A DNA stretch of 62,449 bases from a virus: the IMG/VR virus record IMGVR_UViG_3300030107_001678, positions 1 to 62,449 of that record, one strand, 5' to 3'. Under the pieces are notes generated by a model. The model worked only from the letters and a program-made list of their open reading frames with translations, had not been told where the DNA came from and did not search any database. Shown here piece by piece: positions 639 through 47,112 of the stretch (the first letter of the stretch is position 1; each line of letters begins with the position of its first letter). The position numbers and the translations under genes were made by a program.

Positions 639-3098
639 CTATCTTGCTGTTGCGTATTTAAATGGGTTATGTGCCATTGCTAAGTATATATAAGTTGCTC
701 CACTTGCATTCCAGTTTACTGCATCTCCACCTCTGGCTAACTTAAATCCATTTGAAAGAAAGTCGTTATAATCTGTACCATCTGTATATGCATCTTCTGC
801 CGCTGTACTATTTGGTACTAGCATATGGTATGCAGGATTATATGTATCTCTTGCATTATCTTCTATTCTCCAGTTATTTGAAGTTAATTTTTTCACCATA
901 ATCCATGCAGGTTTAAATCCTGTATAGACAAATGTACCATCAGAACCATCACCATTGCCAACGTATGATCCAGATTTAATATATCCTTCACAATTTGCAA
1001 AAACATAAGCAATCAAATCATTACCATTTTCATTTAAACCATCTGTATAATTTGTACTAAATACTGTTGAAGTAGGAGCAGACATTGAGCCATTTCCAGA
1101 TTTATCAGTTGATGCTCCTGTACTATTTAAATTCATTCCATAATTCCAATTAGTTTGCCCATCTGAAAATACCCACCAGTTTCCAGTTTTTTCTAAAGAT
1201 TTTGTAATAAATAGTGAAGGTGCTGTAGATAAACCATGTCCTACAGTTTCTACTCCAGATGAAGATAAACCTCCAGTATATTTAACTATAGAAAAACAAC
1301 CTGAAGGATCAACTTGAACAGTAGAATTTATATCTCCTTGAGTATTTGTAGATGTTGTTCCACCATTTGCTCTCCATGACCATGAAGCATAAGTATTACC
1401 AGATTGGTTATAATAAGTACCCATAGTATAACCAGTAGAACCAAATGCTGTTAATCCAGAAGATGTAGCTTCTGCATCAGTTTCATTTGAAATTAATATT
1501 TTAGTAGTTCCTCTTGTGCTATCCCACAAACCATTACTTTGACCACCATCTCGTCTTTTTACCCATACCAAGTCTGGTTGGAATCCAGTTGTAAAACTTC
1601 CTCCATTATTTCCAGAGTATGCTAAAGCAGTAAATGTTTTCTGTGGATAATTGTCATCAGTTTGTGCAGGATCAACTTCATCTGCTACTGGTTGATTACC
1701 AGAACATATTGCTAAAAATCCTGAAGGTACAGAATACTTAAAGTTACCATAACCTGTTCCATCACTATTTCCACCTGCTGTAACATTTCCAGCAAAAGTA
1801 CCATCTTGTCCAAAATTAAGAATTGTACTACATGGACCACTTCCTCCTGTATAACCCATATAACAAAAGAACTCTTCATCAAGACTAGATATATCTATAG
1901 TTCCTTGTCCAGCACCATTTTTATAAAACTGTAAAGTATCAGCAGTTCTATCAACAGCTATACTTATAATATCACCTTCAGCCCAAGTTGCACCATAAGA
2001 CGATCTAGTGCCTTTTAATATACTATTTCCATTAAGATTATAATAAACAAGTCCTAAATCATTTTGTTCTTGATTAATAGTAAGGTCAGTATTTGCAGGC
2101 ATAACTCCTATATACACTCCATGATCTGTAGCTATATCGTCAACATCAACTTCCCAATACCATTTACCAGTTACTGGAACTTGCCAATTAGTCATAATTC
2201 CATTATCATCTGAAGTTAATGTAGCTTTTAAATTACCTTCTGCAAGAGCTAAACCACTAGGTGGTTTTAATAAAGGATTGTATGTAGGAAAATTACCACC
2301 ATTAGAACTAGAGTTGAAGGTAGGACTATCTAGCATTTGATCGTGTGCTGCTGTTGATTCATAAGGAGTAAAATCATTATTATTACCAGAAGAATCATTA
2401 CCTAAATCAGAACTTGATTCAAATTTAAGATAATGTCCTGTGGTACCAAATGTTAATCCACTTGGATCTTTAGGAATCCACACACCATTTTTAGTTTCAC
2501 CAAAATCTCCAACAGCTTGAGCAGTTCCATCTATTAATACAATTTCAGCTAAATAACTATATAAAGTATAATTATTACCTGAATCATCACCATATCGTAT
2601 CGTATTAGCACCACACAAAACATTAGTTTGAGAAGCATCTGCTGGATAAGTTTCTGTATCAAATGCTGTTACTCTTTCACCATTTACATAAAGTTGTGCT
2701 CTATTACCTTGTGTTCCATTAGTAAAATCAAGAATACCTACTATATGATACCAAGCAGAAGCATCACGAAATACTTGTGTTGTTTCTAATTCAAATTTCA
2801 TAGCACCACCAACTTCACCTTGAAATTCTAATGTATCATCAGCTAAAAAAGTCATACGAACATAATTATTACCATCTGCATAAGCATGTAATATATATTG
2901 GTAAGCACCTATTTTATTTCTTTTAACCCAAAATGAAATACTAGAAGTTGTAGTAGAACCAGCAGATGATCTGCTTCTATCTAAATCTTGCACACCAGCA
3001 AATCTCATACTATTAGCTATTTGATGGCTATAGAAATCAGTACTTGCACTTGCTGCTGCTGCTGCAGCTCCCATTAAATTATTTTGAAATACACCCAT
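639..3098 (-). CDS. Tail fibre with LamG-like and SPRY-like domains, copy A
   Basis: 819-residue virion protein. After an alanine-rich start (GAAAAAASAS), residues about 50-200 look like a concanavalin/LamG jelly roll (SISFWVKR, WYHIVGILDF, AQLYVNGERV). About 290-430 look like a SPRY-type sandwich (KWYWEVDVDD, GVYIGVMP, FYKNGAGQGTIDIS). The C-terminal half repeats a module seen twice: GFQPDLVWVKRR or GFKPAWIMVKK, GLSTAPSLFITK, ANCEGYIKSGSYVGNG. It ends NPFKYATAR, exactly like the gene at 61207-62449. These are carbohydrate-binding folds, so host-surface recognition is the likely role. Its ATG overlaps the stop of the upstream repeat fibre by one base, which suggests translational coupling. 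Domain names rest on pattern reading, not a search. Confidence 0.8.
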   Translation of the reverse strand: MGVFQNNLMGAAAAAASASTDFYSHQIANSMRFAGVQDLDRSRSSAGSTTTSSISFWVKRNKIGAYQYILHAYADGNNYVRMTFLADDTLEFQGEVGGAMKFELETTQVFRDASAWYHIVGILDFTNGTQGNRAQLYVNGERVTAFDTETYPADASQTNVLCGANTIRYGDDSGNNYTLYSYLAEIVLIDGTAQAVGDFGETKNGVWIPKDPSGLTFGTTGHYLKFESSSDLGNDSSGNNNDFTPYESTAAHDQMLDSPTFNSSSNGGNFPTYNPLLKPPSGLALAEGNLKATLTSDDNGIMTNWQVPVTGKWYWEVDVDDIATDHGVYIGVMPANTDLTINQEQNDLGLVYYNLNGNSILKGTRSSYGATWAEGDIISIAVDRTADTLQFYKNGAGQGTIDISSLDEEFFCYMGYTGGSGPCSTILNFGQDGTFAGNVTAGGNSDGTGYGNFKYSVPSGFLAICSGNQPVADEVDPAQTDDNYPQKTFTALAYSGNNGGSFTTGFQPDLVWVKRRDGGQSNGLWDSTRGTTKILISNETDAEATSSGLTAFGSTGYTMGTYYNQSGNTYASWSWRANGGTTSTNTQGDINSTVQVDPSGCFSIVKYTGGLSSSGVETVGHGLSTAPSLFITKSLEKTGNWWVFSDGQTNWNYGMNLNSTGASTDKSGNGSMSAPTSTVFSTNYTDGLNENGNDLIAYVFANCEGYIKSGSYVGNGDGSDGTFVYTGFKPAWIMVKKLTSNNWRIEDNARDTYNPAYHMLVPNSTAAEDAYTDGTDYNDFLSNGFKLARGGDAVNWNASGATYIYLAMAHNPFKYATAR

Positions 3099-5557
3099 TA
3101 TGCATACGCCTGTGAAATTATCATTTGAATATCTCCACCTACTCCATCACTTGAAGCAGATACTACTATATAATCTAATCTATCTACAGCACCATTAGCT
3201 GTTGACATGGTTGGATCTGTACCACCTATAAACTTAAAGTCTGCGTGATAAGCCATTGTACCACTACCACCTTGTTGAGTTAAGAAAATACTACCTGTTT
3301 GTCCTGATCTACAACCAATAGGTTGTGCTAAAGTATGAGCTGCAGTAACTGATGTTCTAAAGTTTTGACATGCACCAAAGTTTAATGATACAGAAGTTAC
3401 ACCATTAATAGCTGTTGCACATACAACTGCTGCTGCACTTTTTGTTAATTGTAATTGTCCTTCTAAACTTGTATTACCTGATACTCTTACAGTACCTAAG
3501 AATCCTGAATTACCTGCTATTGTTGTAGTACTACCTACTTTTAATGTTCCTGTAAGTGTTGTATTACCAGCTACTGTTAAAGTACTAGCAAGATGTACAG
3601 CTCCTCCAACAGATAGTGTACCTCCAACACTTGCATTACCTGCTACAGTTGCAGTACCACCTACAGCTAAATTACCTACAAGTACTGTATTACCTGATAC
3701 ACAAACATCATCATCAAACTCTGCCTTACCTACACCAGTAAATGTACCACCTACACCTAAATTACCTGTCATAGTAGTATTACCTGCTATAGTTACAGTA
3801 GATGCAAAAGTTGCTGCACCTCCTACTTTAAGAGTTCCAGTTAGTGTTGTATTTCCTGCAACTGTCAAAGTCGAAGCAAGATGTGTTGCTCCTCCTACAC
3901 TTAATGTACCTCCTACAGATGCATTACCTGCTATTGTAGCTGTACCACCAACTGCAAGATTTCCTACAAGAATACTATTACCTGATACACATACATCATC
4001 ATCAAACTCTGCTTTACCTCCAACTACAAGAGTACTTGCCATACTTACTGCATCTTGTAAATGAGTTTCTCCAGCTACTGTTGCAGTACTAGCAAATGTA
4101 GCAGCTCCTCCAACTTTAAGAGTACCTGTCATAGTAGTATTACCTGCAACTGTTAATGTTGAAGCTAGATGTGTAGCTCCTCCTACACTAAGAGTACCAC
4201 CTACTGAAGCATTTCCTGCAACTGTAGCTGTACCTCCTACTGCCAAGTTTCCTACTAATACTGTATTTCCAGAAACACATACATCATCATCAAATTCAGC
4301 TTTTCCTACAGCAGTAAATGTACCACCAACTCCTAAGTTAGCAGTTAATGTTGTATTACCTACAATAGTTGCAGTACCTCCTACATAAAGAGTACCTCCT
4401 ATTGTAGCATTATTAACTGATATATTTCCTGATATACCTCCTGCAGGTACATTTGTTAAATTAGCACCATCTCCATAAAAAGCACTAGCACAAACTCTAG
4501 CATTAGGAGCTTGGACATTAGTTCCACCTATTGTTACTGTACCACCTATAGATACATTACTAGCTATTGTGGCTGTACCTCCAATATTTACATTACCTGA
4601 TACAGAAACATCATCTTCAAATTCAGCTTTACCTGTTATATTTGAAGTACCTCCAATAGATACATTACTTGCTACTGTTAATGTACTAGCTAAATTTACA
4701 GCACCTCCTACACCAAGTGTACCTGTTAAAGTTGTATTACCTGCAACTGTTAGTGTAGATGCTAGATTAACAGCTCCACCTACATTAAGTGTTCCTGTCA
4801 TAGTTGTATTACCTGCAACAGTTAATGTAGATGCTAAATGTGTAGCACCACCAACTGATAATGTACCACCTACTGAAGCATTACCTGCTACTGTGGCTGT
4901 GCCACCAATATTTAAATTTCCAGAAACAGATACATCATCTTCAAATTCTGCTTTACCAGTTATATTAGATGTACCACCTATAGAAACATTACTTGCAACA
5001 GTTAATGTACTTGCCAGATTAACAGCTCCACCAACTCCAAGAGTTCCTGTTAATGTTGTATTACCTGCTACAGTTAAAGTACTTGCAAGATGTGTAGCAC
5101 CTCCTACTGATAAAGTTCCACCTATAGTAGTATTACCTGATACTCTAACAGTTCCTAAGAATCCTGCAGCTCCTGATACTGTAGCTGTACTTAAAAGATT
5201 TACAGCTCCTCCTACAGATAAAGCTCCACCAATAGTTGCATCATTTGTAACTCTTAATGTAGATACAGATACATCTCCTGATGCAGGAACATTAGTTAAA
5301 TTAGAACCATCTCCATAGAAAGCTGATGCACATACTTTACTACCTACTAAAAGATTACCAGATACTGAAGCATCTTCTGATACTCCAAAGTTACCTGCAA
5401 CTTGTATTACACTTGTAGATATTTGTAATGCTGAATTAGTACCATCACCTGTTTGCACTTGTGTTAAATCACCTGTAACACCAGTATTAGTACTTACAGC
5501 CATTTTTAATAGCTGCTTATAACTTTGTGATATTTGTTTTCCTGTAAGTTTTGTCAT
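3098..5557 (-). CDS. Repeat-rich tail fibre
   Basis: About 820 residues. Residues roughly 80-690 are degenerate repeats of 10-20 residues built on phrases such as GGTLSVGGATHLASTLT, VAGNTTLTGTL, KAEFDDDVCVSGN and SNVSIGGT. This Gly/Thr/Val/Asn-rich pattern fits a trimeric beta-helical shaft. The motif VCASAFYGDGSNLTNVP occurs twice. The last 110 residues (SLNFGACQNF, GSIFLTQQGGSG, LDYIVVSAS) resemble the C-terminus of the protein at 59301-60224. I chose the ATG at 5557 because it forms an ATGA overlap with the upstream stop and has GGTGG upstream; an in-frame ATG at 5572 is the alternative. The next gene downstream is the LamG-like fibre, so the pair may form one fibre assembly (inference). 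Confidence 0.8.
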   Translation of the reverse strand: MTKLTGKQISQSYKQLLKMAVSTNTGVTGDLTQVQTGDGTNSALQISTSVIQVAGNFGVSEDASVSGNLLVGSKVCASAFYGDGSNLTNVPASGDVSVSTLRVTNDATIGGALSVGGAVNLLSTATVSGAAGFLGTVRVSGNTTIGGTLSVGGATHLASTLTVAGNTTLTGTLGVGGAVNLASTLTVASNVSIGGTSNITGKAEFEDDVSVSGNLNIGGTATVAGNASVGGTLSVGGATHLASTLTVAGNTTMTGTLNVGGAVNLASTLTVAGNTTLTGTLGVGGAVNLASTLTVASNVSIGGTSNITGKAEFEDDVSVSGNVNIGGTATIASNVSIGGTVTIGGTNVQAPNARVCASAFYGDGANLTNVPAGGISGNISVNNATIGGTLYVGGTATIVGNTTLTANLGVGGTFTAVGKAEFDDDVCVSGNTVLVGNLAVGGTATVAGNASVGGTLSVGGATHLASTLTVAGNTTMTGTLKVGGAATFASTATVAGETHLQDAVSMASTLVVGGKAEFDDDVCVSGNSILVGNLAVGGTATIAGNASVGGTLSVGGATHLASTLTVAGNTTLTGTLKVGGAATFASTVTIAGNTTMTGNLGVGGTFTGVGKAEFDDDVCVSGNTVLVGNLAVGGTATVAGNASVGGTLSVGGAVHLASTLTVAGNTTLTGTLKVGSTTTIAGNSGFLGTVRVSGNTSLEGQLQLTKSAAAVVCATAINGVTSVSLNFGACQNFRTSVTAAHTLAQPIGCRSGQTGSIFLTQQGGSGTMAYHADFKFIGGTDPTMSTANGAVDRLDYIVVSASSDGVGGDIQMIISQAYA

Positions 5558-5829
5558 ATTGTTTGCCACCATTTATCTTCATCTTCCCAATTTACAGCAA
5601 CATTCTGCCATTCAAGGTTTCTGCCACCTATATCAGGTCGAGGATTTCTAATTGTTACATCATCTCTTACATCTGGTACTTTATTTTGAGGATGATTCTT
5701 AAAGTCATATGCACCATCCCAACATTCAGGACAAGTAACCATATTATAACTATTTAATTTCATTACTCTATGTGCATATACAAAACCACATGTATCACAC
5801 ATAGCTAAAGCATTTTTATTGGAAGCCAT
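5554..5829 (-). CDS. Small zinc-ribbon-like protein
   Basis: 91 residues with two CxxC knuckles, MCDTCGF near residue 11 and TCPECWDG near residue 33, the arrangement of a small zinc ribbon. The rest is polar and tryptophan-rich at the end (NWEDEDKWWQTI). It lies between the adaptor-like gene and the repeat fibre, sharing one base with the upstream stop and four with the downstream start. That puts it in the same transcript and suggests a virion or assembly role. The function is unknown; zinc binding is inferred from cysteine spacing only. Confidence 0.75.
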   Translation of the reverse strand: MASNKNALAMCDTCGFVYAHRVMKLNSYNMVTCPECWDGAYDFKNHPQNKVPDVRDDVTIRNPRPDIGGRNLEWQNVAVNWEDEDKWWQTI

Positions 5830-9628: not shown

Positions 9629-10537
9629 TTAAGCACCAGCATTACCATACCAGCCACGCCAATCTGAAACACCAAAAGAATATCTTTCACGTGCTTTAAA
9701 TCTTAAGTTGCCAGTATCGAAGTCTGGTTCCATTTTAGTTTGTAAAGGTGTTCTTGTAAACATCTTAGTACCATTAGGTACATCAGTTTTAATGAACCAA
9801 GCATTGGTATCAGTAAAACGTCTATTTACGAAGAAGCCATCTGGAAATACTCCCAAGTGTCTTACAGCGTTGATGTCATTATTAGCACTACCAGGTGTAC
9901 CTGGAGTATTTAATAATTGATCTGCTGTAAATAGTAAATCAACAGGAACATGTAAAGATACTGCAGAAGCACCAATTAAGATACCTCTATCATCTTTTGT
10001 TTTCTGTATTTGAATTACTGCACTTTCTAAAGTACCTTCAGCTATTGCTGCAGCAGTTGCTCTATTGTCTTGAGTTCCATCAGCAATAGTTGGGTGAGAA
10101 GCACTAAAGAATGCTACACCATCACCAATAGCAGAAGCTCCAGCAGTAAAGCCATTATTAAAGACTTTAGCAGCTTTTACTTGCTTGGTGTTTGCCATTG
10201 CTCTTGCAAGACCTTTTGCACGTAACTTAGCGAAAGTATCGTAGAGGTTATCCTCCATAGCTTCCTCTGTTACTGCAAAAGCTAGAGCTACTGTTTCGTT
10301 ATCATAACGAGCTGTATATGATTCTTGTGCGTCATCATAACTTACAGCAGCACCTTCTGTTTTATCTGGAGCAGTACCAAAACCTGTAAATAGAACTTCT
10401 TCCTCGAATGCTCGATCAGAATTTTCTATTTCAAATAATGGTTTGTGCTCATCATTAACTTCGCCATACTCTGTTCCAAAGACTGCGTTCAATCCAGGAA
10501 GGAGTTCTTTGGCGATACTTGATCTATTTATAGCCAT
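9629..10537 (-). CDS. Major capsid protein
   Basis: 302 residues with the character of an HK97-fold capsid protein related to the Mu gpT-type group: an N-terminal SSIAKELLPGLNAVFGTEYG, then FTGFGTAPDKTEGAAVSYDD, the long helix-like segment AFAVTEEAMEDNLYDTFAKL, and a C-terminal block LQTKMEPDFDTGNLRFKARE followed by YSFGVSDWRGWYG. The size is right for a podovirus capsid without a cleaved delta domain. It lies behind the scaffold and two small head genes. Codon use is more GC-rich than its neighbours, as expected for a highly expressed gene. The hairpin downstream may stabilise its mRNA. Confidence 0.88.
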   Translation of the reverse strand: MAINRSSIAKELLPGLNAVFGTEYGEVNDEHKPLFEIENSDRAFEEEVLFTGFGTAPDKTEGAAVSYDDAQESYTARYDNETVALAFAVTEEAMEDNLYDTFAKLRAKGLARAMANTKQVKAAKVFNNGFTAGASAIGDGVAFFSASHPTIADGTQDNRATAAAIAEGTLESAVIQIQKTKDDRGILIGASAVSLHVPVDLLFTADQLLNTPGTPGSANNDINAVRHLGVFPDGFFVNRRFTDTNAWFIKTDVPNGTKMFTRTPLQTKMEPDFDTGNLRFKARERYSFGVSDWRGWYGNAGA

Positions 10538-11685: not shown

Positions 11686-12663
11686 TTATCCTCCACGCTG
11701 CATATTAATTGTAGTATACTCACCTTCAGCTTTATCAGCTTTCAGTTTTTCTTCTGCATACTTTTCAAGTGGTACATTCCATTTATTAGCTAAACGAATA
11801 TCTTCTTTAGATAGTTTAACTTTTTTATTGGAACCTGGAGAGCTGCGAGATGCTCCAGCTACTACTTGAGCAGGAGGTGACGTTTTCTCCTGCTGACGAA
11901 CTTCCTCGTTGGTTGTTGAAAACTTATGAGGAAATGTTCTTTTTATCCTATTATCTACTTCCTGATAAAATTCAGGATCTGTAGGACTAAATCCTTCTTC
12001 TTTTAATTCTGCATCTATTGCTAGTGCAGCAGCAGTCATTACTCTATCATTACCAAACCACTCATTTTGAGATGCCCAGTCTTGAGCTTTAGGATCAGGT
12101 GTAGGTTGAGGTTGATATTGTGGTTGTTGTTGTCCTATACCTTGTTGGTTTTCTTGTGGCTGCTGTTGTTGAAACTGTTGTTTTGTTATTTGTACTGCTT
12201 TTAAATCAGTTTGAGCATCATTAAGCATTTCTTGAGCTTGTAAAACTTTTTGAGAATCACCTTCTTCGTGAGCAGTTTTATATGCATTACGTGCTAACTC
12301 TAATTTATCAGTTAATTGTTTTTCAGAAGCATCTAAGTTTACTCCTCTAGCACTTGTAAATTGTTGATGAACTTGATTTAGTTGTTGTGATAATTGTTCA
12401 TTTTGTCGTATAACTTGAGCAAGTTGTTCATCACGTTCTTTACGTTGTTTAACTAACTGACGTATTCTTTTTTGTGCTCCTTTAGTTTGAACACCTTCAA
12501 GCTCTGGAGGTGTTTCTTCTGTAGGAGATTCTGCTACTACTTCTTCTTTTGGAGGTGGAGCTTCTTCTTTTTGTTCTCCTTCTACCTCATATTCTACTTT
12601 TTCTTCTGTTGTTTCTTCTGGAACAACTTCATTCCATTCTTCTTTTTTTTCGTCTTCAGACAT
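11686..12663 (-). CDS. Scaffolding protein
   Basis: 325 residues with the composition of a phage scaffold. There is a highly acidic Glu/Pro N-terminus (residues 1-60), a long Gln-rich coiled coil (about 65-180: RIRQLVKQRKERDEQLAQVI, NEQLSQQLNQVHQQ), a Gln/Pro linker, and a basic C-terminal part (SNKKVKLSKEDIRLANKWNV) suited to binding the capsid shell. It stands first after a strong promoter (12715-12743) and just upstream of the capsid genes, the standard position. Confidence 0.8.
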   Translation of the reverse strand: MSEDEKKEEWNEVVPEETTEEKVEYEVEGEQKEEAPPPKEEVVAESPTEETPPELEGVQTKGAQKRIRQLVKQRKERDEQLAQVIRQNEQLSQQLNQVHQQFTSARGVNLDASEKQLTDKLELARNAYKTAHEEGDSQKVLQAQEMLNDAQTDLKAVQITKQQFQQQQPQENQQGIGQQQPQYQPQPTPDPKAQDWASQNEWFGNDRVMTAAALAIDAELKEEGFSPTDPEFYQEVDNRIKRTFPHKFSTTNEEVRQQEKTSPPAQVVAGASRSSPGSNKKVKLSKEDIRLANKWNVPLEKYAEEKLKADKAEGEYTTINMQRGG

Positions 12664-12746: not shown

Positions 12747-13172
12747 TTATGCACTACCTGCATGTAAATTAAAGGTTGGATCTAGATCTTTTGGATGTTC
12801 CACACGCATAATAATTTGATCATCAAATAATAATATAAGACGAATACCCTTATATTTTATCTTTTGACCTGAGTGTTTTCCATAACAAACATAATCACCT
12901 TTTTTACACCATTCACCTTTAGGAAATTTATCTTTATCTTGATAAGCTAAATCTCCTAGAGCTACCACACGACCTACTGTAGTAAGATAGGACATGTCTT
13001 CCTTTGTTGAATCAGGTAATAGTATACCACCTTTTGTCTTTTCTTTAATTGAGACAGGTCTTACGAGTACATGAAAACCTGGAAGTTCAGGTAGAATATT
13101 TGGATCACTTTTTTCTTCTTCTGAAATCCACATATCATTCTTAATAGTCTTAGCTAATGATACCTGTTGCAT
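12747..13172 (-). CDS. groES: GroES-like co-chaperonin
   Basis: 141 residues. Residues about 29-120 are a Cpn10 domain: LPGFHVLVRPV, the mobile-loop region KTKGGILLPDSTKE (compare GGIVL in GroES), TVGRVVALGD, KKGDYVCYGKHSGQKIKYKG and a final strand ILLFDDQIIMRV. It caps the host GroEL ring during folding. T4 gp31 is the classical phage case, needed to fold the capsid protein. Here the gene sits directly upstream of the scaffold/capsid operon, so capsid folding is the likely purpose. It has an extra N-terminal segment of about 28 residues and a short C-terminal extension compared with bacterial GroES (about 97 residues). Confidence 0.85.
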   Translation of the reverse strand: MQQVSLAKTIKNDMWISEEEKSDPNILPELPGFHVLVRPVSIKEKTKGGILLPDSTKEDMSYLTTVGRVVALGDLAYQDKDKFPKGEWCKKGDYVCYGKHSGQKIKYKGIRLILLFDDQIIMRVEHPKDLDPTFNLHAGSA

Positions 13173-13369
13173 TAGTCTTCCTCTTCATCTGAATAGATAC
13201 GTTTTTTAACAATATCTGTTAGTTTATTTCTGGACCATTCAATTCCATAAATGTGTCCAACCATTTGTCTGTAATGAGGAAAATCATCTGATTGTCCATC
13301 ACAAACACCAGTTCTTAATTTATTGAGTTCGTTATTAAATTCTTTAACGACCTCATCCCATATTTCCAT
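13172..13369 (-). CDS. Small acidic protein of unknown function
   Basis: 65 residues, helical and charged (MEIWDEVVKEFNNELNKLR, FPHYRQMVGHIYGIEWSRN), ending EEED. It overlaps the GroES-like start by one base, and its ATG lies four bases after the PqqA-like stop. I recognise no domain. The context places it in the portal-to-GroES gene string. Confidence 0.6.
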   Translation of the reverse strand: MEIWDEVVKEFNNELNKLRTGVCDGQSDDFPHYRQMVGHIYGIEWSRNKLTDIVKKRIYSDEEED

Positions 13370-13373
13370 TTAA

Positions 13374-13448
13374 TTAGATTTCTGCACAAGCGTAGCAGTT
13401 AATTTCTAATCCAACAGATACTTCTCTTAGTATAGGTTTAGTCCACAT
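13374..13448 (-). CDS. pqqA: PqqA-like peptide (PQQ precursor family)
   Basis: 24-residue ORF: ATG at 13448, TAA at 13374-13376. It starts MWTKP, then VGLEINCY, and ends ACAEI. PqqA is the ribosomal precursor of pyrroloquinoline quinone; PqqE, a radical-SAM enzyme, joins the Glu and Tyr of an ExxxY motif. Here E15 and Y19 have exactly that spacing, in the GxExxxY context. The MWTKP start is that of the common PqqA, and the VGxE...Y...AEI end is close to the Methylobacterium-type PqqA as I remember it. An AGGAA lies about eight bases upstream, and the ATG overlaps the previous stop (TAATG), so it is translationally coupled. No pqqB-E is in the window, so processing would rely on the host. Alternatively it is an unprocessed modulator or a chance match; the number of matching positions makes chance unlikely. 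Confidence 0.72.
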   Translation of the reverse strand: MWTKPILREVSVGLEINCYACAEI

Positions 13449-13654
13449 TATCTTTTTCCTTTAGTTGGTGAAGGATACTTCCAAGAAGAATCTTCACGTT
13501 GATTTAACACACCTTGTTTAGGTTTACTTCCAAAGTCAGCTTGTGACATTTTAGTAGAATCTCCATACAATCCACCATCTTTATTAGGTACATGCATAGG
13601 TTTACCATCAGTAATACCTTTATCAACAGGATATGCTTTATTCCCTATTGGCAT
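13448..13654 (-). CDS. Small protein of unknown function
   Basis: 68 residues, Gly/Lys/Pro-rich and probably poorly structured (MPIGNKAYPVDKGITDG, SSWKYPSPTKGKR). Its start lies 17 bases inside the end of the portal gene, and its stop overlaps the PqqA-like start, so it belongs to the portal string. No domain recognised. Confidence 0.6.
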   Translation of the reverse strand: MPIGNKAYPVDKGITDGKPMHVPNKDGGLYGDSTKMSQADFGSKPKQGVLNQREDSSWKYPSPTKGKR

Positions 13655-16196
13655 TTGTTTCTCCTTTTGTTTCTTCTTTTATTAGATCTGTCATAACATC
13701 CATAAGTTTAAAACTTCGTTGTCTATCATCTAGATCTTCCATTAATGAAACTTTCTCTAGAGCATTCATACGAATTTTTTCTAGATCAATTTCAGCTTTC
13801 TGGTCAGCAATAGCTGTTTTAGTTAGATTATCAAGAGCTTTCATAGTTTCTTTACTTGCTCTATCAAGATCAGCTTTTTCCTTTTTCAGTATTGAATCTT
13901 GACCAGCTTTACCAGATTCCACCATTAATTTAGCTTCCTCTAATTCCAATTTCTGTGCATCTAATGCAGAGTCTGCAGAATACTTAGCAGCAGTTTGTTG
14001 TAGTTTTTGTTTTTCTAATTCGACTTTAGCTTGTTCTAAAGCTACCATTTGTTGTTCAGGTGATTGTACTTGACCTGCTGCCATATTTGCATTTAATACT
14101 TGTTGAGCTGCACTTGCCATAGCTGCTTCTGCAACTTTAGGATCTTTTTGTTGTTCAGGTGGCATTTGTTCCATTGCCATTCTTGCCATACCATTCATTT
14201 GTTCTTGGTATTTCATTACAGAATGTTCTTGTATATTTGCTTCTAGTATTGGTTTTAACCTAGCCATTATAGGATTAGCACCATTCTGTGGATCTTGTAA
14301 GTATGCCATTTTTGTTTGTATATGAGCATCATGGTTTTGTCCTGCAAATGCTGCAATAGGTATACCTTTTGTTGCAGCCATTATATCAGATACAGGGTCC
14401 ATTTGTTGTGGTTCTTTTTTAGGTGGTAACACTTCTTCTAAATTAGGCATATTAGCAGAATTTAATATTGTTCTATTTAATGCTTCAAGATTAAACATAC
14501 CAGGAGGTGATTGTTGTGCCATTTGTAATGCCATTTGTGCAATCATCATTCTATGGGCATTTGATGGAATGTTAGGATCTGAGACAGGGATAACATCCAC
14601 TCTTCCATCAAAGTCTTGTTTAAGAATGTTTTTTTCAGCAAAAGGAACTTCATATGGATATTCTGAAGGTAAGTAATCATAATTGATTCTTGCAAGTATT
14701 TTAAATTCATCTCTTTGAGATTTGTGTAATCTCTTATGGATAGCAGAGAAGAACTTACTTGATGCTTCTAGTAATGCCATAGTCGTTCCAACAGGTCCAT
14801 AAGATGCAGCATCAGAAACTATTTGTTCTGTACTATCTGCAAACTTTTGTCCTGCTGCAGTTACAAAGCCAAGCATTTGAAAAAGAGTTGAGGAAGGTTC
14901 TTTATAGGGGAGAGAGATAATCGCCTTGTTCAAATCTTGTCCTGTTGCTTCAACTTCTTTAAACTCACCTGGACTTATTGGTTCATTATCACCAACAATC
15001 CTTACGCCTTTTGCTTTAAATCCTCCTGGTAAGTTTGCGAATTGACCTGCATCCACTAAACTTCTCATAGCTGCTGTAGCAGTCATAGTTAAGTTTCCTA
15101 AAAAGTGCATGAGACCAAATCCATAGAAACCAAATCCTGGAACGAATCTATAATGTACAAAGTGCGAGACTTTTTCTTGGTTCGTATCGTTCTTCTTATA
15201 GTTTCTACGAATACTTAAAATTTGTTGTGATTGCTCTTCAACTGTAACAATATAAGGAAGAGCATAGTCTTCTTCTATTTCTAAATAACAATGCTGTTCA
15301 AGTAATGTATATTGAGGATCATTATTTTCTGTAGGTGATAATCCTAATATAGTATCCATTTTAGAAGAGAATGATGTAGGTTGTGGGTTTGTTGCATCTG
15401 GTAATTCTACATCATTATATATTCCTGATCGTATATCTTTAGCAAGATCAACAGGACTTCTATATATAACATGTGTATATCTATCTGCTTTTTTTAGATT
15501 AGATGCATAGTAAGACACATAGAATTGATCAATAGGAACAAATTCAGATACTGGTCTTTTTAATGTTGCATCATAATAAACTTTTTTAAATGCTGATCCT
15601 ATTAAGGGAAGGTGAAACAACATTCTTTCAAACTCATCAAAATATTCAGGCATCTGTTCTGTTGTTTGATAGTTCATAAACTCTTGTACACGATTAGCTT
15701 GATCTTCTCTTTCAGGAGTAGACTTACCTAATATATGTGCTTTAACTGGACCTGATGGTGGAAATAATTCTTGTATAGCTTTTGATTGAAACTTAACAGC
15801 AGATTCTATTAACATAGGATGTACTGCTGTACATGCACCCTCAAATGGTTCTGATGAATCTTGTATCTTTAATCCTAATAAATCAAATCCTCTTTCAAAC
15901 ATGGACTCCCATTCTTGACGAGAATCTCTATCTGATGTAAAACAATCAATAACTTCATTTGCTATATTAGCTAATTGTTCTTCTTCTAATGTATCAACTA
16001 AATTACCATACCATTCTTGTATAGATTCTTCAGCTCCCATTTCTGGTGATGTACCTTCAAGATCAACAATAACACCACCATCTGTATCCATTTCAAATGT
16101 TGGTTGTCCTATTGGTGCTTCTTCTGGTGTAGGTAAATTCACTATGTTTGATACTTCTTCTGGTATAGTATCAAATGGATTTCTTTCTGTTGCCAT
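13638..16196 (-). CDS. Portal protein
   Basis: 852 residues, large as in P22-type portals. An acidic start leads to a core with FTSDRDSRQEWESMFERGFD, AVHPMLIESAVKFQSKAIQE, LFHLPLIGSAFKKVYYD and VPIDQFYVSYYASNLKKADR, all typical of portals that thread DNA through a dodecameric ring. The last 230 residues form a long Gln/Glu/Lys-rich coiled coil (KVELEKQKLQQTAAKYS), like the barrel helix of P22 portal. It is placed after the terminase and the tagged cassette and before scaffold and capsid. Its ATG overlaps the ART-like stop by one base. Confidence 0.82.
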   Translation of the reverse strand: MATERNPFDTIPEEVSNIVNLPTPEEAPIGQPTFEMDTDGGVIVDLEGTSPEMGAEESIQEWYGNLVDTLEEEQLANIANEVIDCFTSDRDSRQEWESMFERGFDLLGLKIQDSSEPFEGACTAVHPMLIESAVKFQSKAIQELFPPSGPVKAHILGKSTPEREDQANRVQEFMNYQTTEQMPEYFDEFERMLFHLPLIGSAFKKVYYDATLKRPVSEFVPIDQFYVSYYASNLKKADRYTHVIYRSPVDLAKDIRSGIYNDVELPDATNPQPTSFSSKMDTILGLSPTENNDPQYTLLEQHCYLEIEEDYALPYIVTVEEQSQQILSIRRNYKKNDTNQEKVSHFVHYRFVPGFGFYGFGLMHFLGNLTMTATAAMRSLVDAGQFANLPGGFKAKGVRIVGDNEPISPGEFKEVEATGQDLNKAIISLPYKEPSSTLFQMLGFVTAAGQKFADSTEQIVSDAASYGPVGTTMALLEASSKFFSAIHKRLHKSQRDEFKILARINYDYLPSEYPYEVPFAEKNILKQDFDGRVDVIPVSDPNIPSNAHRMMIAQMALQMAQQSPPGMFNLEALNRTILNSANMPNLEEVLPPKKEPQQMDPVSDIMAATKGIPIAAFAGQNHDAHIQTKMAYLQDPQNGANPIMARLKPILEANIQEHSVMKYQEQMNGMARMAMEQMPPEQQKDPKVAEAAMASAAQQVLNANMAAGQVQSPEQQMVALEQAKVELEKQKLQQTAAKYSADSALDAQKLELEEAKLMVESGKAGQDSILKKEKADLDRASKETMKALDNLTKTAIADQKAEIDLEKIRMNALEKVSLMEDLDDRQRSFKLMDVMTDLIKEETKGETNANRE

Positions 16197-19693: not shown

Positions 19694-21235
19694 CTAAGTT
19701 CTCCAGTATGCAACCTTTTTCTTTCTAGGTTCATCTTCCCACTCAGGATCTTCAGGATGCGACAAGTGCCACGACTCTTTCATATAATGTATTGCCATAG
19801 TCATAGCATCAACTTGGTCATCATGTGCAGCATTAGGAAACCTTAACATTTCTTCTAATAAGTCTTCTGACCATTTTTTATTTTGTGGTATCCATACACG
19901 ACCTGATTCCATCATAGGAGATGCTGCATATACTCTGGATACCTTATCTTTATCTGGTAAATATTCTAATACAGGCACACCAGATCTACGCATATCTTGT
20001 ATTAATGATTGTCCTGATGCTTTCTTTTCTATCATACAAACATCAGGTTTATGCTCATGGTATAATAATTGAGCCATACGTCTTAATTCTGGATATTCAA
20101 ATCTTCCTTTTATATTTCCTAATAAAATTAAATTTGATTGATACGATTCATATCCTTCTTCATCCTGATCATACATGGAGAATATACCCCATGTCTGAAT
20201 AACACTATAATCTGCTGTAGTTTTTGTAGAGAATGCTGTATCATATGTTTGTATTATAAAATCACATGTAGGTGGTTCTGCATATTCCCACCAACGTATC
20301 CATTTCTTTTTTATTAATCCCCCTTCATCTGGTGTGGGATCTTGCATATACAAAGCATTCCAGTATCGTGCACCATTTGACGCTTTAATTTCTGATTCAT
20401 CTACTTTTAATATGTTATCTGGCTTCCATTCAGGAAAATAACTAGAACCTACAGGTAAATCTAATAATTCTGATGCTTCTTCATCAAGCCATGCTGGAAT
20501 ACGTACAACATCCCAAGGAGTTACAGCATAATCTCCTACATTTTCTTGTTGTTTTAATAACCATCCACAGAGATCATCATAATGATACCTTGTATTAATA
20601 ATTAATATGGAACCATTAGGCATAATACGTGTTCTTAGTCCTGCTGGATACCATTCCTTAACGTATCTTCTACCTGCTTCAGAGTATGAGTCTTCTTCTG
20701 ACATGACATCATCAAGGATCGCAATGTGTGCACCTCTTCCTGCAATCTGGGATCGTACTCCTGCAGCATAGTAGGTTCCTCCAATATTTGTTTTCCATTT
20801 TCCTGCTGCTCGTACATCTGTACGTAAGGACACTCCTTTGAAAATATCCTGAAATGTTTCTTCATTAACAATATCTCTGACAGAACGACCAAAATCGCTT
20901 GATAACTGGTCACTATGGGAAACAGTAAGTATTTCATGTTCTGGATTCCTTCCAATATACCATGCAGGAAACAATTTAGAACAGATAACAGACTTAGAAG
21001 ACCTGGGTGGTAGAAAAACCATAAGTCTTTTTATCTCTCCAGCTTCTAATTGTCTTAGTTTTTCACTAATAACCTCTATATGTCTACCCATTTTCCAATC
21101 AGAAACAAGTTTTGGAGCCATTTGGCGAACAAATGTCAAGAAATCTACCTTAGATTCCTGTTGAACTTTTGTACTTAATAGATTATTAAGAGTTAAAAGA
21201 GGTGATATGTCTATAGAGTTCTCTATAGTTTCCAA
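19694..21235 (-). CDS. terL: Terminase large subunit
   Basis: 513 residues, the packaging motor. The ATPase part has an unusual Walker A (LPPRSSKSVICSKLFP, about 75-90), as in many phage terminases, an adenine-binding FGRSVRDIVNEE and a Walker B (HIAILDDVMSEED). The C-terminal RNase H-like nuclease shows the three acidic positions: QTYDTAFSTKTTADYSV, DVCMIEKKASGQ and AAHDDQVDAMTMAIH. It starts with TTG (21233-21235) behind AAGGA; no ATG is available nearby. It heads the minus arm behind the promoter at 21350-21378. The small subunit is not adjacent but at 43502-43918 on the other strand. Confidence 0.93.
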   Translation of the reverse strand: METIENSIDISPLLTLNNLLSTKVQQESKVDFLTFVRQMAPKLVSDWKMGRHIEVISEKLRQLEAGEIKRLMVFLPPRSSKSVICSKLFPAWYIGRNPEHEILTVSHSDQLSSDFGRSVRDIVNEETFQDIFKGVSLRTDVRAAGKWKTNIGGTYYAAGVRSQIAGRGAHIAILDDVMSEEDSYSEAGRRYVKEWYPAGLRTRIMPNGSILIINTRYHYDDLCGWLLKQQENVGDYAVTPWDVVRIPAWLDEEASELLDLPVGSSYFPEWKPDNILKVDESEIKASNGARYWNALYMQDPTPDEGGLIKKKWIRWWEYAEPPTCDFIIQTYDTAFSTKTTADYSVIQTWGIFSMYDQDEEGYESYQSNLILLGNIKGRFEYPELRRMAQLLYHEHKPDVCMIEKKASGQSLIQDMRRSGVPVLEYLPDKDKVSRVYAASPMMESGRVWIPQNKKWSEDLLEEMLRFPNAAHDDQVDAMTMAIHYMKESWHLSHPEDPEWEDEPRKKKVAYWRT

Positions 21236-35594: not shown

Positions 35595-35934
35595 AGGGTG
35601 GTCAACAGAAAGTTATAAAAACTATATGAAGAGAAGAAATCAAGAAGAGAAAGCATTACAAAAAGGCACATATGAATATGAATATTTAACACATGATGAA
35701 ATGATTCGTGATTCTGTAAAAGCTACGAGTAAACAAATAGGTGGAAACCATTATAAAGATTGTAAGATTATGCCTATTGAATATATTGTTAAAAATAATC
35801 TTGACTTCTTAGAAGGTAATGTGGTAAAATATATAACTCGCCATAAATTAAAAGGTGGTCAAGAAGATATAGAAAAAGTAATTCATTATGCAGAATTAAT
35901 ATTAGAACTAAAGTATGGAAAGGAAAATAGATGA
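35548..35934 (+). CDS. DUF3310 protein
   Basis: 128 residues. Residues about 58-125 are a DUF3310 domain: SKQIGGNHYKDCKIMPIEYI, FLEGNVVKYITRHKLKGGQE and DIEKVIHYAELILELKYG. The family is common in phages and often lies near nucleotide-metabolism genes; a nucleotide-related role has been suggested but not proven. Here it is directly upstream of the ribonucleotide reductase with an ATGA overlap, which fits that idea. The N-terminal 55 residues are charged and unrelated. Confidence 0.8.
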   Translation: MSDKKLKESWINQEDRGWSTESYKNYMKRRNQEEKALQKGTYEYEYLTHDEMIRDSVKATSKQIGGNHYKDCKIMPIEYIVKNNLDFLEGNVVKYITRHKLKGGQEDIEKVIHYAELILELKYGKENR

Positions 35935-37856
35935 CAATAAATAATTATTTACCTACAGAATATCAATCATTTATACATATGTCTAGGTATTCAAGATGGT
36001 TAGAAGAAAAAGGTAGAAGAGAAACATGGACTGAAACTGCAGGTAGATTAATATCTTATTTTAAAAATCATATAGATACGAATTATAAAGGTGTGCTTAA
36101 AAATAAAGAATGGAATGAATTAGAAGAAGGTATATTATCTTTACAAGTTATGCCTAGCATGAGAGCTTTAATGACTGCAGGTGGAGCATTAGATAGAGAG
36201 AATGTTGCTGCTTATAATTGTTCTTATATTCCTATTGATAGTCCAAAAGCATTTGATGAAGTGTTATATATACTTATGAATGGTACAGGTGTAGGTTTTT
36301 CTGTTGAAAGACAGTATGCTGACAAGCTTCCCACTATACCTGATCAAGAGTTTGAACATACAGATGATGTTATTTCTGTTGCTGATTCTAAAGAAGGATG
36401 GGCAAGAGCATTCAGAGATCTTATTTCTTTTTTATATACTGCTCGTATACCTAAGATAAGTGTAACAAAAGTAAGACCTGCAGGTGCAAGACTTAAAACA
36501 TTTGGTGGTAGAGCTAGTGGACCACAACCTTTAGTTGATCTATTTGATTTTACTATTAGTAAGTTTACAGGTGCACGAGGTAGAAAGCTTTCCTCTATGG
36601 AGTGCCATGATATTGTATGTAAGACAGGTGAAGTTGTAGTGGTTGGTGGTGTTAGAAGATCAGCTCTTATATCTTTATCTAATCTTTCTGATCAACGTAT
36701 TCGTGGTGCTAAGATGGGTGAATGGTGGAATGATAATCCACAAAGAGCATTGGCTAATAACTCTGTTGCTTATACAGAGAAACCAGATGTAGGAATCTTT
36801 ATGAAAGAATGGTTGTCTTTATATGAAAGTAAATCAGGTGAAAGAGGTATCTTTAATAGACAATCTGCTCAAGCTAAAGCTAGTGAGAATGGTAGACGAG
36901 ATGCATCATGGGATTTTGGTACTAATCCTTGTAGTGAAATTATATTAAGACCTAATCAATTCTGTAACTTAACAGAGGTTGTGTGTCGTTCTACTGATAC
37001 ATTAAATACTCTTAAAGCAAAAGTACGATTAGCTACTATACTAGGTACAATACAATCAACCTTTACAAACTTTGGTTATCTTCGTAAAAGGTGGCAGAAT
37101 AATACAGAAGAAGAAAGACTACTAGGTGTATCTCTTACAGGCATTATGGATTGTTCTGAATTAAATAATCTTGATGGATTAAAAATTAAATTAGAAATAT
37201 TAAAACAACATGCAATAGATACAAATAAAGAACTTGCTAAAAAATTAGGCATACCTCAATCAACTGCCATTACTTGTGTGAAACCTTCAGGTACTGTTAG
37301 TCAATTAGTTGATAGTGCTAGTGGTATACATGCTAGACATAATCCTTACTACATACGAACAGTAAGAGGTGATAATAAAGATCCATTGACAGAGTTTATG
37401 AAAGCATCTGGCATTCCTAACGAACCAGATTATTTAAAACCAGAACATACAACTGTATTTTCATTTCCTATGATGGCTCCTAAAGGTTCAGTATGTCGTA
37501 AAGATATGTCTGCTCTTGAGCAATTAGAGATATGGAAATGTTATGCACAACATTGGTGCGAACATAAACCTTCTGTAACTATTAGTGTTAAGGAAGATGA
37601 GTGGATTCCTGTAGGTGCATGGTGTTGGGAAAATTTTGAGCATGTAAGTGGTATATCTTTCTTACCTTTTTCTGACCATACATATCAACAAGCACCTTAT
37701 CAAGATATAACTGAGAAAGTATATAAACAATTAGAAAAAGGTATGCCAAAAAATATTGATTGGAATAAACTTCAAGATTTTGAGAAAGAAGATAATACAA
37801 AAGGATCACAACAACTTGCATGTACTGCAGGTGTATGTGAGTTGGTAGACATATAA
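35931..37856 (+). CDS. nrdJ: Ribonucleotide reductase, class II (B12-dependent)
   Basis: 641 residues, a monomeric adenosylcobalamin-dependent reductase. Signs: YNCSYIPIDSP (first active cysteine), TGVGFSVERQYADKLP, GTNPCSEIILRPNQFCNLTE with N332, C334 and E336 as radical-site residues, TCVKPSGTVSQLVDSASGIH, and C-terminal redox cysteines in CTAGVCELVDI. It makes deoxynucleotides for phage DNA without oxygen or a separate small subunit, but needs cobalamin from the host or sea. No partner subunit is present, as expected for class II. It overlaps DUF3310 upstream and the DUF1289 frame downstream. Confidence 0.92.
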   Translation: MTINNYLPTEYQSFIHMSRYSRWLEEKGRRETWTETAGRLISYFKNHIDTNYKGVLKNKEWNELEEGILSLQVMPSMRALMTAGGALDRENVAAYNCSYIPIDSPKAFDEVLYILMNGTGVGFSVERQYADKLPTIPDQEFEHTDDVISVADSKEGWARAFRDLISFLYTARIPKISVTKVRPAGARLKTFGGRASGPQPLVDLFDFTISKFTGARGRKLSSMECHDIVCKTGEVVVVGGVRRSALISLSNLSDQRIRGAKMGEWWNDNPQRALANNSVAYTEKPDVGIFMKEWLSLYESKSGERGIFNRQSAQAKASENGRRDASWDFGTNPCSEIILRPNQFCNLTEVVCRSTDTLNTLKAKVRLATILGTIQSTFTNFGYLRKRWQNNTEEERLLGVSLTGIMDCSELNNLDGLKIKLEILKQHAIDTNKELAKKLGIPQSTAITCVKPSGTVSQLVDSASGIHARHNPYYIRTVRGDNKDPLTEFMKASGIPNEPDYLKPEHTTVFSFPMMAPKGSVCRKDMSALEQLEIWKCYAQHWCEHKPSVTISVKEDEWIPVGAWCWENFEHVSGISFLPFSDHTYQQAPYQDITEKVYKQLEKGMPKNIDWNKLQDFEKEDNTKGSQQLACTAGVCELVDI

Positions 37857-38216: not shown

Positions 38217-38633
38217 ATGAGTTTATTTCATAACATAAATAGATATGCTATAGGATTTGATCATTTGATGGATCATATGGTAGCTCTGCAAAATAATGAT
38301 AACTTAACAGGTAATGATTACCCACCTTATGATATTGTTAAAGCAGGAGAAGATAAATATACTATAGAATTAGCAGTTGCTGGTTTTAAAAAGGATGAAT
38401 TAATTCTTGAAGTTAAAGATCAATACTTAACTATCAAGGGTGACTCTAATAAAAGACATTCTAATGAGGAGTATCTTCATAAGAATATAGCACGAAGATC
38501 TTTTCACAAAAGATTTTCTCTAGCAGAAAATATAGAAGTTAATGATGCTAGAATGGAGGATGGTGTATTGATTGTTAGTCTGACACATAATATACCTGAA
38601 GAACAGAAACCAAAAAGCATTACTATCCAGTAG
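38217..38633 (+). CDS. Small heat-shock protein Hsp20/IbpA family
   Basis: 138 residues. The alpha-crystallin domain (about 38-130) is clear: YPPYDIVKAGEDKYTIELAV, AGFKKDELILEVKDQYLTIK, YLHKNIARRSFHKRFSLAEN and DGVLIVSLTHNIPEE, ending with the KPKSITIQ tail that docks between subunits. It holds unfolding proteins and is known from marine phages. It has its own promoter and a strong terminator (38646-38676), so it is a single-gene transcript. Confidence 0.9.
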   Translation: MSLFHNINRYAIGFDHLMDHMVALQNNDNLTGNDYPPYDIVKAGEDKYTIELAVAGFKKDELILEVKDQYLTIKGDSNKRHSNEEYLHKNIARRSFHKRFSLAENIEVNDARMEDGVLIVSLTHNIPEEQKPKSITIQ

Positions 38634-46070: not shown

Positions 46071-46527
46071 TCTCTTTTAACCACTTCTCATAATCAGGTC
46101 TTTTTTCAGGGTTGTTTAACCATTCTTGTGCAGCTTCAATTCCTATCTTACCCATATATGGACAAGGTGTTCCTGCCATTTCCATAGCAGAAAATACTCT
46201 TTCGTCTTGACATAGCATGGATACTGCTGCAACCTTCATACCCATTCTATATAAAGCACGACTTAATTTTAATCTTTCACAATTTAAATCTCTTATAGAT
46301 GTACCACCTGCTATACCTAGTATTTGTGATTGAATAGCAGCAGATGCAGCAAAGCTACAGACATCTTGATTACTGTTCATAATAGAGGGAGCACTTGCAG
46401 TTGATGGAGTTCTATCAACGCTAGTTGTTCCACTAACAGTAGAGGTAGTAGATGTTACTGTATTCGTTTGTGCATAACTTTGTAATGTAAATAAAAATGC
46501 AAATATAAATAAAAAATATTTAACCAT
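45988..46527 (-). CDS. Exported protein of unknown function
   Basis: 179 residues from the ATG at 46527, chosen because it gives a clean signal peptide (VKYFLFIFAFLFTLQSYAQ); the longer frame from 46566 adds residues inside the upstream gene. After a Thr/Ser-rich linker comes a cysteine-bearing domain (DVCSFAASAAIQSQILGIAG, LNCERLKLSRALYRMGMKVA, AVSMLCQDERVFSAMEMAGT, PCPYMGKIG), and the end is a membrane helix (ALGIFSVLLMLLFI). Four or five cysteines suggest disulfides in the periplasm. Similar signal-plus-cysteine proteins occur in marine phages (memory). Function unknown. Confidence 0.65.
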   Translation of the reverse strand: MVKYFLFIFAFLFTLQSYAQTNTVTSTTSTVSGTTSVDRTPSTASAPSIMNSNQDVCSFAASAAIQSQILGIAGGTSIRDLNCERLKLSRALYRMGMKVAAVSMLCQDERVFSAMEMAGTPCPYMGKIGIEAAQEWLNNPEKRPDYEKWLKENAIKDEEIINDEGALGIFSVLLMLLFI

Positions 46528-46855
46528 AAGCAAAACTTTCTCCACATCCACATTGTGAGGTAGCATTAGGATTATTAATTTGTAAATAACTTCCTGCTAC
46601 ATCTTTAGTAAAATCTATAATTGTACCTAATACATACATAATAGCAGTAGGATGTATGTATAATAAACCTTTATCTAATTTAATAATCTCATCTGAATTA
46701 ACATCTTCAACTTTTGAATTAACAAATTCCCATTTATAATTAAATCCTGCACAACCACCACCTTCAATAGATAACTGTACACCTAATGCTTTGTGTTCGT
46801 CTATGGTATTTGATAAGTATTCATTAGCTTCTTTAGTAATAGATACTGGTGACAT
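46520..46855 (-). CDS. HesB/IscA-type iron-sulfur carrier
   Basis: 111 residues from the ATG at 46855 (GGAGAAACAATA upstream, TAATG overlap); a start at 46873 is less likely. The A-type carrier signature is complete: VSITKEANEYLSNTI, VQLSIEGGGCAGFNYKWEF with the first cysteine, and QCGCGESFAYG with the other two. Such proteins carry [2Fe-2S] or [4Fe-4S] clusters to target enzymes; marine phages often encode one. Here it sits among late genes encoding exported and virion proteins, not near metabolic genes. Confidence 0.88.
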   Translation of the reverse strand: MSPVSITKEANEYLSNTIDEHKALGVQLSIEGGGCAGFNYKWEFVNSKVEDVNSDEIIKLDKGLLYIHPTAIMYVLGTIIDFTKDVAGSYLQINNPNATSQCGCGESFAYG

Positions 46856-47112
46856 TATTGTTTCTCCATCCACCTATCTAGTTTTTCTTCTAGTCTATCA
46901 AATCTATCTAGTATTTTATTAACTTCACTATATACTTCTTTTTTTGTAGCATAGTTTGTAGCCATAAATTCTCTAGTCTTTGCATCAGACAATGCATGTT
47001 CTTTTAAATCTTCACGTAGTTTATTTATATCACTATTAGTACCACGTATCCACCATAGGAACGCACCTACTGCTAAAGTTAATATAGCATTCCATAACAT
47101 TATATCTTGCAT
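46855..47112 (-). CDS. Small membrane-anchored coiled-coil protein
   Basis: 85 residues: one N-terminal membrane helix (MLWNAILTLAVGAFLWWIRG), then an amphipathic coil (DINKLREDLKEHALSDAKTR, NKILDRFDRLEEKLDRWMEK). Typical size and plan of small phage lysis-associated proteins (holin or i-spanin-like), but a virion role is equally possible. One base after the large ejection-type gene and coupled to the IscA-like gene. Confidence 0.65.
   Translation of the reverse strand: MQDIMLWNAILTLAVGAFLWWIRGTNSDINKLREDLKEHALSDAKTREFMATNYATKKEVYSEVNKILDRFDRLEEKLDRWMEKQ

Follow-up and report, generated by a model that had tools for sequence, protein, structure and literature searches.

Why would a phage carry a gene for the precursor of a host cofactor, and what could it gain from 24 codons? 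This question is raised by pqqA, a gene in IMG/VR virus record IMGVR_UViG_3300030107_001678, of which positions 1 to 62,449 (62,449 nucleotides; the window hereafter) were examined in the present study. PqqA is the precursor of the redox cofactor pyrroloquinoline quinone (PQQ) and the only component of the pathway to be consumed, each PQQ molecule costing one peptide. In the sea, methanol, other alcohols and sugars are oxidised by enzymes that depend on PQQ. An initial annotation of the window suggested that the phage may boost or hijack host PQQ production, or use the host machinery to produce its own cross-linked peptide. On the sequence evidence presented below, we consider it likely that pqqA is a host-derived auxiliary metabolic gene that would supply this consumable precursor to host enzymes.

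Identity of the pqqA gene and selection on it

The pqqA open reading frame (ORF) lies on the minus strand (13448..13374), runs from ATG to TAA over 24 codons and encodes MWTKPILREVSVGLEINCYACAEI. Its ATG shares one base with the TAA stop of the preceding gene, ORF68, forming a TAATG overlap, and a Shine-Dalgarno-like motif, AAAGGA (13457..13462, minus strand), precedes the start by 8 nt; the ORF, coupling and ribosome site described in the initial annotation were thus all present. Its suggestion of a PqqA likeness was also borne out by profile searches, in which the peptide scored 32.4 bits against the NCBIfam PqqA equivalog model TIGR02107 (E 5.9e-8, cut-off 20) and 31.6 bits against Pfam PF08042 (cut-off 21.1). 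With our own PqqA profile, built from 136 phage and bacterial peptides including that of the window, the ORF scored 58.5 bits, compared to 8.1 for the next best frame of the window and 13.1 for the best hit in 60 dinucleotide shuffles of it. The 24-residue peptide has the short W..P leader of PqqA (W2 and P5, both kept in related phages) and the Glu/Tyr pair in ExxxY spacing (E15 and Y19), with C18 and C21 on the two sides of Y19. Adjoining pqqB-E genes, a usual but non-obligatory trait of bacterial pqqA, were found neither in the window nor in any viral locus of our first set. The curated profiles confirm the gene as PqqA, for which cross-linking by PqqE/PqqD and conversion to PQQ are predicted.

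Selection was assessed in related phages, collected independently of pqqA by a portal search that returned 80 IMG/VR loci. Among the 23 distinct pqqA genes of these loci, window included, the ratio of nonsynonymous to synonymous polymorphism (pN/pS) was 0.235 for the whole gene (bootstrap 0.216-0.260; uncorrected counts); the true ratio is probably lower because the counts are uncorrected and silent sites are near saturation. By segment, pN/pS was 0.42 for residues 2-12 and 0.111 for residues 13-24. E15, C18, Y19 and C21 were invariant in this set, as were W2, P5, E9, G13, E15 and Y19 in a wider set of 98 distinct viral genes, where most of these positions were preset by the search patterns. 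An SD-like motif precedes 86 of 88 distinct viral pqqA starts. The dN/dS-type comparison and the conservation of the ORF and of E15 and Y19, both proposed in the initial annotation as checks, therefore agree: the two residues never vary, and by its substitution pattern pqqA is under purifying selection in related phages. The gene has a mere 24 codons and many relatives are without it, as might be expected of a functionless relic or a chance ORF. Set against this are the profile scores, the shuffles, the SD sites, a pN/pS of 0.235 with many silent changes, and the occurrence of pqqA at several insertion places in several phage lineages. The profile scores, shuffles and selection lead us to reject a chance ORF, and we give a relic or chance origin practically no credence.

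The window copy lies between the portal and GroES genes, with one small ORF on each side, namely ORF68 upstream and ORF65 downstream. In related contigs that show the portal-to-ORF65 interval, pqqA occupies this slot in 24 of 66. In relatives without pqqA, the interval is either closed or occupied by different sequence, in five cases a small membrane ORF; no variant PqqA was found in such relatives by profile search and by reading of the slot in 15 of them. Closure is seen in locus L005, where ORF68 is joined directly to ORF65 although the portal is 92% identical to that of the window. The small ORF that fills the slot in L031 (7846-7945), and likewise in L026, L028, L046 and L053, has one membrane-like hydrophobic stretch. 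The ORF68-ORF65 interval is a variable cargo slot and pqqA an accessory insert in it, since the gene is present, absent or replaced at one place in relatives. Its features are those of a phage auxiliary metabolic gene, being a host-type gene that is carried in a phage genome with terminase, portal and capsid and is dispensable at its place in relatives.

Candidate hosts and the proposed role

The two cysteines flanking Y19 were initially regarded as unlike common PqqA and as a possible phage novelty. This view was rejected: 99 stretches of contigs from bacterial genomes, of which almost all belong to Alphaproteobacteria, contain the GLEINCYxC core, making the cysteines ordinary. The fetched stretch included pqqB-E at 70 of these 99 loci, and one of them, L280, is a complete operon in which pqqA is followed by PqqB, PqqC, PqqD and PqqE, all above cut-off. 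Of 27 bacterial genomes having a GLEINCYxC PqqA, 26 encode a PqqE that scores above cut-off. The phage peptide shares with alphaproteobacterial PqqA such as that of L280 the leader (W..P...E..VG), the core (GLEINCYxCAE), the length, the E-xxx-Y spacing and both cysteines; unlike the operon copies, it is encoded by a solitary gene in an operon of virion genes, without pqqB-E.

Based on peptide type and GC content, we infer that the host of the window phage is a low-GC marine alphaproteobacterium. A candidate order, represented by 28 genomes that include small marine ones and labelled Pelagibacterales, Rhodospirillaceae or MarineAlpha9 in their records, carries PqqA in 22 of 28, PqqE in 24 of 28, and a PQQ alcohol dehydrogenase in 24 of 28 (19 of them above cut-off). 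Plausible hosts thus do have PQQ genes, the lack of which would have spoken against a PqqA role. Low-GC loci of this order have a GC content of 28-33%, compared to 31.6% for the window, and their pqqA genes are nearest to the viral copies, with up to 91% nucleotide identity; the window pqqA itself is at most 78% identical to bacterial copies. AEGEAN-169 was considered as a named host and not adopted; the paper on that clade has no PQQ in its text. A search for infected host genomes gave matches of 31-34% identity in three of 385 Alphaproteobacteria, plus a more distant phage in genome G071 of the candidate order. The latter, a contig of 7650 bases (G071:C6, locus L311), carries a phage terminase and portal 65-69% identical to those of HTVC027P-type pelagiphages, and may reflect an infected cell or contamination. 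A second, solitary pqqA was seen in three low-GC marine alphaproteobacterial genomes (L212:4288, L201:3572 and L218:7810), which may be donors or recipients of phage genes; that of L212 sits between LysR and EmrB-type efflux genes. Residue 8 is K in these three solitary bacterial copies and in most viral copies, and mostly R in operon copies.

No further part of the PQQ pathway was found in the phages. PqqE was above cut-off in none of 35 phage records, PqqD in none of 22 (window included), and the PQQ_2 dehydrogenase domain in none of 33; many of these records are fragments, so absence is no proof for each. The phage records gave a single weak match to PqqE (27.8 bits against a cut-off of 381), which was not accepted as PqqE.

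In the proposed mechanism, a pqqA derived from a host would be kept as an auxiliary metabolic gene, and the phage operon would make PqqA to feed the PqqD/PqqE, protease, PqqB and PqqC already in the host. As host gene expression declines, PQQ output would be sustained or increased, and the extra PQQ would charge host quinoprotein alcohol dehydrogenases; the electrons that these deliver to the respiratory chain would then provide energy for phage production. As PqqA is consumed one for one, the phage would keep the PQQ enzymes of its host fed, and pqqA probably enhances the energy metabolism of infected hosts. PQQ in Acetobacter increased by 29% with extra pqqAB and eightfold with pqqABCDE (PMC7936290), so the supply of precursor can be relevant without necessarily being the chief constraint. 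A parallel may be drawn with cyanophage psbA, in which the phage supplies the fastest-consumed part of a host system; psbA, however, encodes a protein subunit, whereas PqqA is spent as starting material for a cofactor.

Several points weigh against this interpretation. Because pqqA is missing from close relatives such as L005, any benefit would be conditional. An enzyme, and not PqqA, may limit PQQ formation in these hosts; in Acetobacter, the full operon had a far larger effect than pqqAB (PMC7936290). Peptide type and GC content are what the host assignment rests on, and G071, the sole candidate-order genome with a relative of the phage (closer to the HTVC027P type), showed neither pqqA nor pqqE. 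We infer that the gene is translated in infected cells, that host PqqE modifies the peptide, that PQQ rises and that the phage benefits.

Within the same interpretation, the phage copy may serve to maintain the PQQ level by replacing host pqqA messages lost in shut-off, rather than to increase it, much as cyanophage psbA makes up for a subunit with fast turnover. PqqA being a consumed substrate, the phages lacking the pathway enzymes, and the window copy sitting in the head-gene operon are all consistent with maintenance; nevertheless, the sequence data fit replacement and increase alike and the position of pqqA differs between phages, so we entertain this version tentatively. Surplus PqqA might instead act as a decoy that titrates PqqD/PqqE, such that PQQ falls and the host is harmed; PqqE and the chaperone PqqD are both established binding partners of PqqA. 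We regard a decoy as very improbable, given that all PQQ-forming residues are kept under selection, which a decoy would not need, and that pqqAB overexpression raised PQQ in Acetobacter (PMC7936290).

The second suggestion of the initial annotation, that host PqqD/PqqE are used to make the phage's own cross-linked peptide (a signal, inhibitor or other product) in place of PQQ, draws on the presence of the modified Glu and Tyr, on the re-use known for precursors of ribosomally synthesised and post-translationally modified peptides, and on residue 20, which varies more among phage copies (A, M, V, S) than among bacterial ones. However, leader and core are identical in kind to those of bacterial pqqABCDE operons, a phage-specific extra segment and a modifying enzyme are both absent, and the two phage PqqA types described below each resemble bacterial PqqA. 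We therefore consider this role very unlikely, if slightly less so than a decoy, and boosting of host PQQ the best reading of the two originally proposed.

Distribution of pqqA among viruses

The alphaproteobacterial pattern G[LMIF]EINCYxC was found in at least 120 viral stretches of IMG/VR. Among the matches listed, 114 were new loci, 51 of them near a window-type portal, ORF65 or GroES and 63 not. Elsewhere, pqqA lies between terminase and portal (L087, L122, L159, L161 and L179), near a small-terminase-like gene (L099, L148 and L132) or, in the T4-like contig L124, together with S-adenosylmethionine decarboxylase. A gamma/beta pattern, G[LMIF]EVTMY, added 98 viral stretches, and the W..P leader is present in nearly all of them. 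Large ORFs sampled from these stretches matched phage families, mostly structural, in eight of 10 cases; some may be host DNA, as L363 carries pqqB. A third pattern (INMY) gave four viral stretches. Viral pqqA thus comes in two host types, alphaproteobacterial GLEINCYxC and gamma/beta GFEVTMY, and in total more than 200 IMG/VR stretches from several phage lineages have a solitary pqqA.

Three T4-like contigs had an oxygenase gene beside pqqA. The marine contig L131 encodes an alkane 1-monooxygenase homologue at 3003-4067 (PDB 8sbb, E 9.5e-30; 8f6t) and pqqA at 4258, and in L082/G062 and L093/G033 a monooxygenase homologue, matched as PF00487 only, lies a few hundred bases before pqqA. A PQQ alcohol dehydrogenase would consume the product of the monooxygenase.

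Among 50,697 GenBank phage records, no credible match to the alphaproteobacterial form was found, and the gamma/beta form gave 12 matches. Nine of these are phages of Methylophilales/Methylophilaceae (Venkman, MEP301, MEP401, MEP402, P19250A and four Melnitz isolates), and PqqA type agrees with host group in the cultured phages. The remaining three comprise one uncultured podovirus and two contigs named Acinetobacter phage MD-2021a (CAKLQF020000010.1, our L436, and CAKLQH020000055.1). The MD-2021a records were rejected as phage and judged to be bacterial DNA because ppk, pqqB, pqqC and PqqD stand beside pqqA in the first. Venkman, MEP301, MEP401, MEP402, P19250A and one of the four near-identical Melnitz isolates were scanned with TIGR02107, and all passed at 34-41 bits. 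At the position of pqqA, the GenBank records of the first five have no feature, and in Melnitz the match coincides with a hypothetical protein; in the Melnitz paper, PQQ appears as a medium component only. These phages resemble the window in their single short pqqA, SD site and neighbours without annotated pqq, and differ from it in their GFEVTMY core, phage families and genome places. Their OM43/LD28-type Methylophilales hosts oxidise methanol with a PQQ enzyme, and cultured pairs such as Venkman and Methylophilales H5P1 carry pqqA, making the idea directly testable.

The length of pqqA is below the default limit of common gene finders. Surveys of phage metabolic genes have therefore probably missed it, as is also suggested by the missing features in the five cultured phage records. 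Phage-borne PqqA is not new, as PqqA and methanol dehydrogenase have been reported in the Lake Baikal phage population VP_266, with support of host PQQ proposed (PMC7678222), and viral pqqA, pqqD and pqqE have been listed for reservoir sediments (PMC13188868). VP_266 is thus alike in the proposed role of its PqqA, but is a T4-like phage of Methylophilaceae with methanol dehydrogenase, whereas the window belongs to another lineage with alphaproteobacterial PqqA, and no PQQ dehydrogenase was found in the phage records tested here. A search of open-licence papers gave no report of the marine alphaproteobacterial form, of the breadth of pqqA or of its occurrence in cultured phages of methylotrophs; its breadth and its occurrence in cultured phages appear to be previously unreported. 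The chances seem to us evenly balanced that these records reflect a widespread overlooked strategy, in which unrelated phages of PQQ-using bacteria carry only the host-matched cofactor precursor and thereby control quinoprotein respiration, and in which some T4-like phages with pqqA and alkane monooxygenase drive both first steps of alkane oxidation. At 75 bases, pqqA is about the cheapest possible metabolic gene and may let phages steer marine alcohol and sugar oxidation.

Head operon and affiliation of the window phage

The minus-strand gene run of the window that holds portal, pqqA and GroES continues to the capsid gene. The terminase large subunit (19694..21235, minus strand, as are all features of this section with coordinates up to it in the run) matched PF17289 with 63.3 bits, and the portal, or head-to-tail connector (13638..16196), is 36-42% identical to annotated connectors/portals of CRP-901, 023Pt_psg01 and DSL-LC04. 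ORF68 (13448..13654) has homologues of 40-100% identity in many relatives, and ORF65 (13172..13369), the far border of the pqqA slot, has homologues in 66 of the 80 related loci; neither had a match in a Pfam scan. GroES, a co-chaperonin (12747..13172), matched PF00166 with 48.3 bits and occupies an equivalent place in HTVC023P, HTVC027P, DSL-LC04 and RW. It is followed by a scaffold-like protein (11686..12663), its role suggested by position and composition and its place between GroES and the capsid gene conserved in relatives, and by the major capsid protein (9629..10537; PF25209, 50 bits).

Compared to cultured phages, the window portal shows 30-42% identity, with the best matches to HTVC023P-/HTVC027P-type pelagiphages, roseophages CRP-901/902 and DSL-LC04. 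The window shares with the HTVC023P type homologous proteins in the order TerL-portal-small genes-GroES-scaffold-capsid, and its identity to HTVC023P and HTVC027P is 38-42% for the portal, 52% for the capsid and 41-45% for GroES. It is therefore a marine phage related to HTVC023P-type pelagiphages, in a clade that is separate and distant from them. The order portal, small genes, GroES, capsid is common to HTVC023P, HTVC027P, 023Pt_psg01, DSL-LC04 and Caulobacter phage RW, and pqqA was not found in the stretches read of these five; PQQ does not appear in the main text of a study of 80 HTVC023P-type genomes.

Further host-type genes of the window encode a ribonucleotide reductase with a B12-dependent insertion domain (35931-37856), Hsp20 (38217-38633) and an A-type Fe-S carrier protein (46520-46873). 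A fibre-like protein of 824 aa (3098-5572) contains many near-identical repeats of the type VGGTATVAGNxxxxGTLxVGGA.
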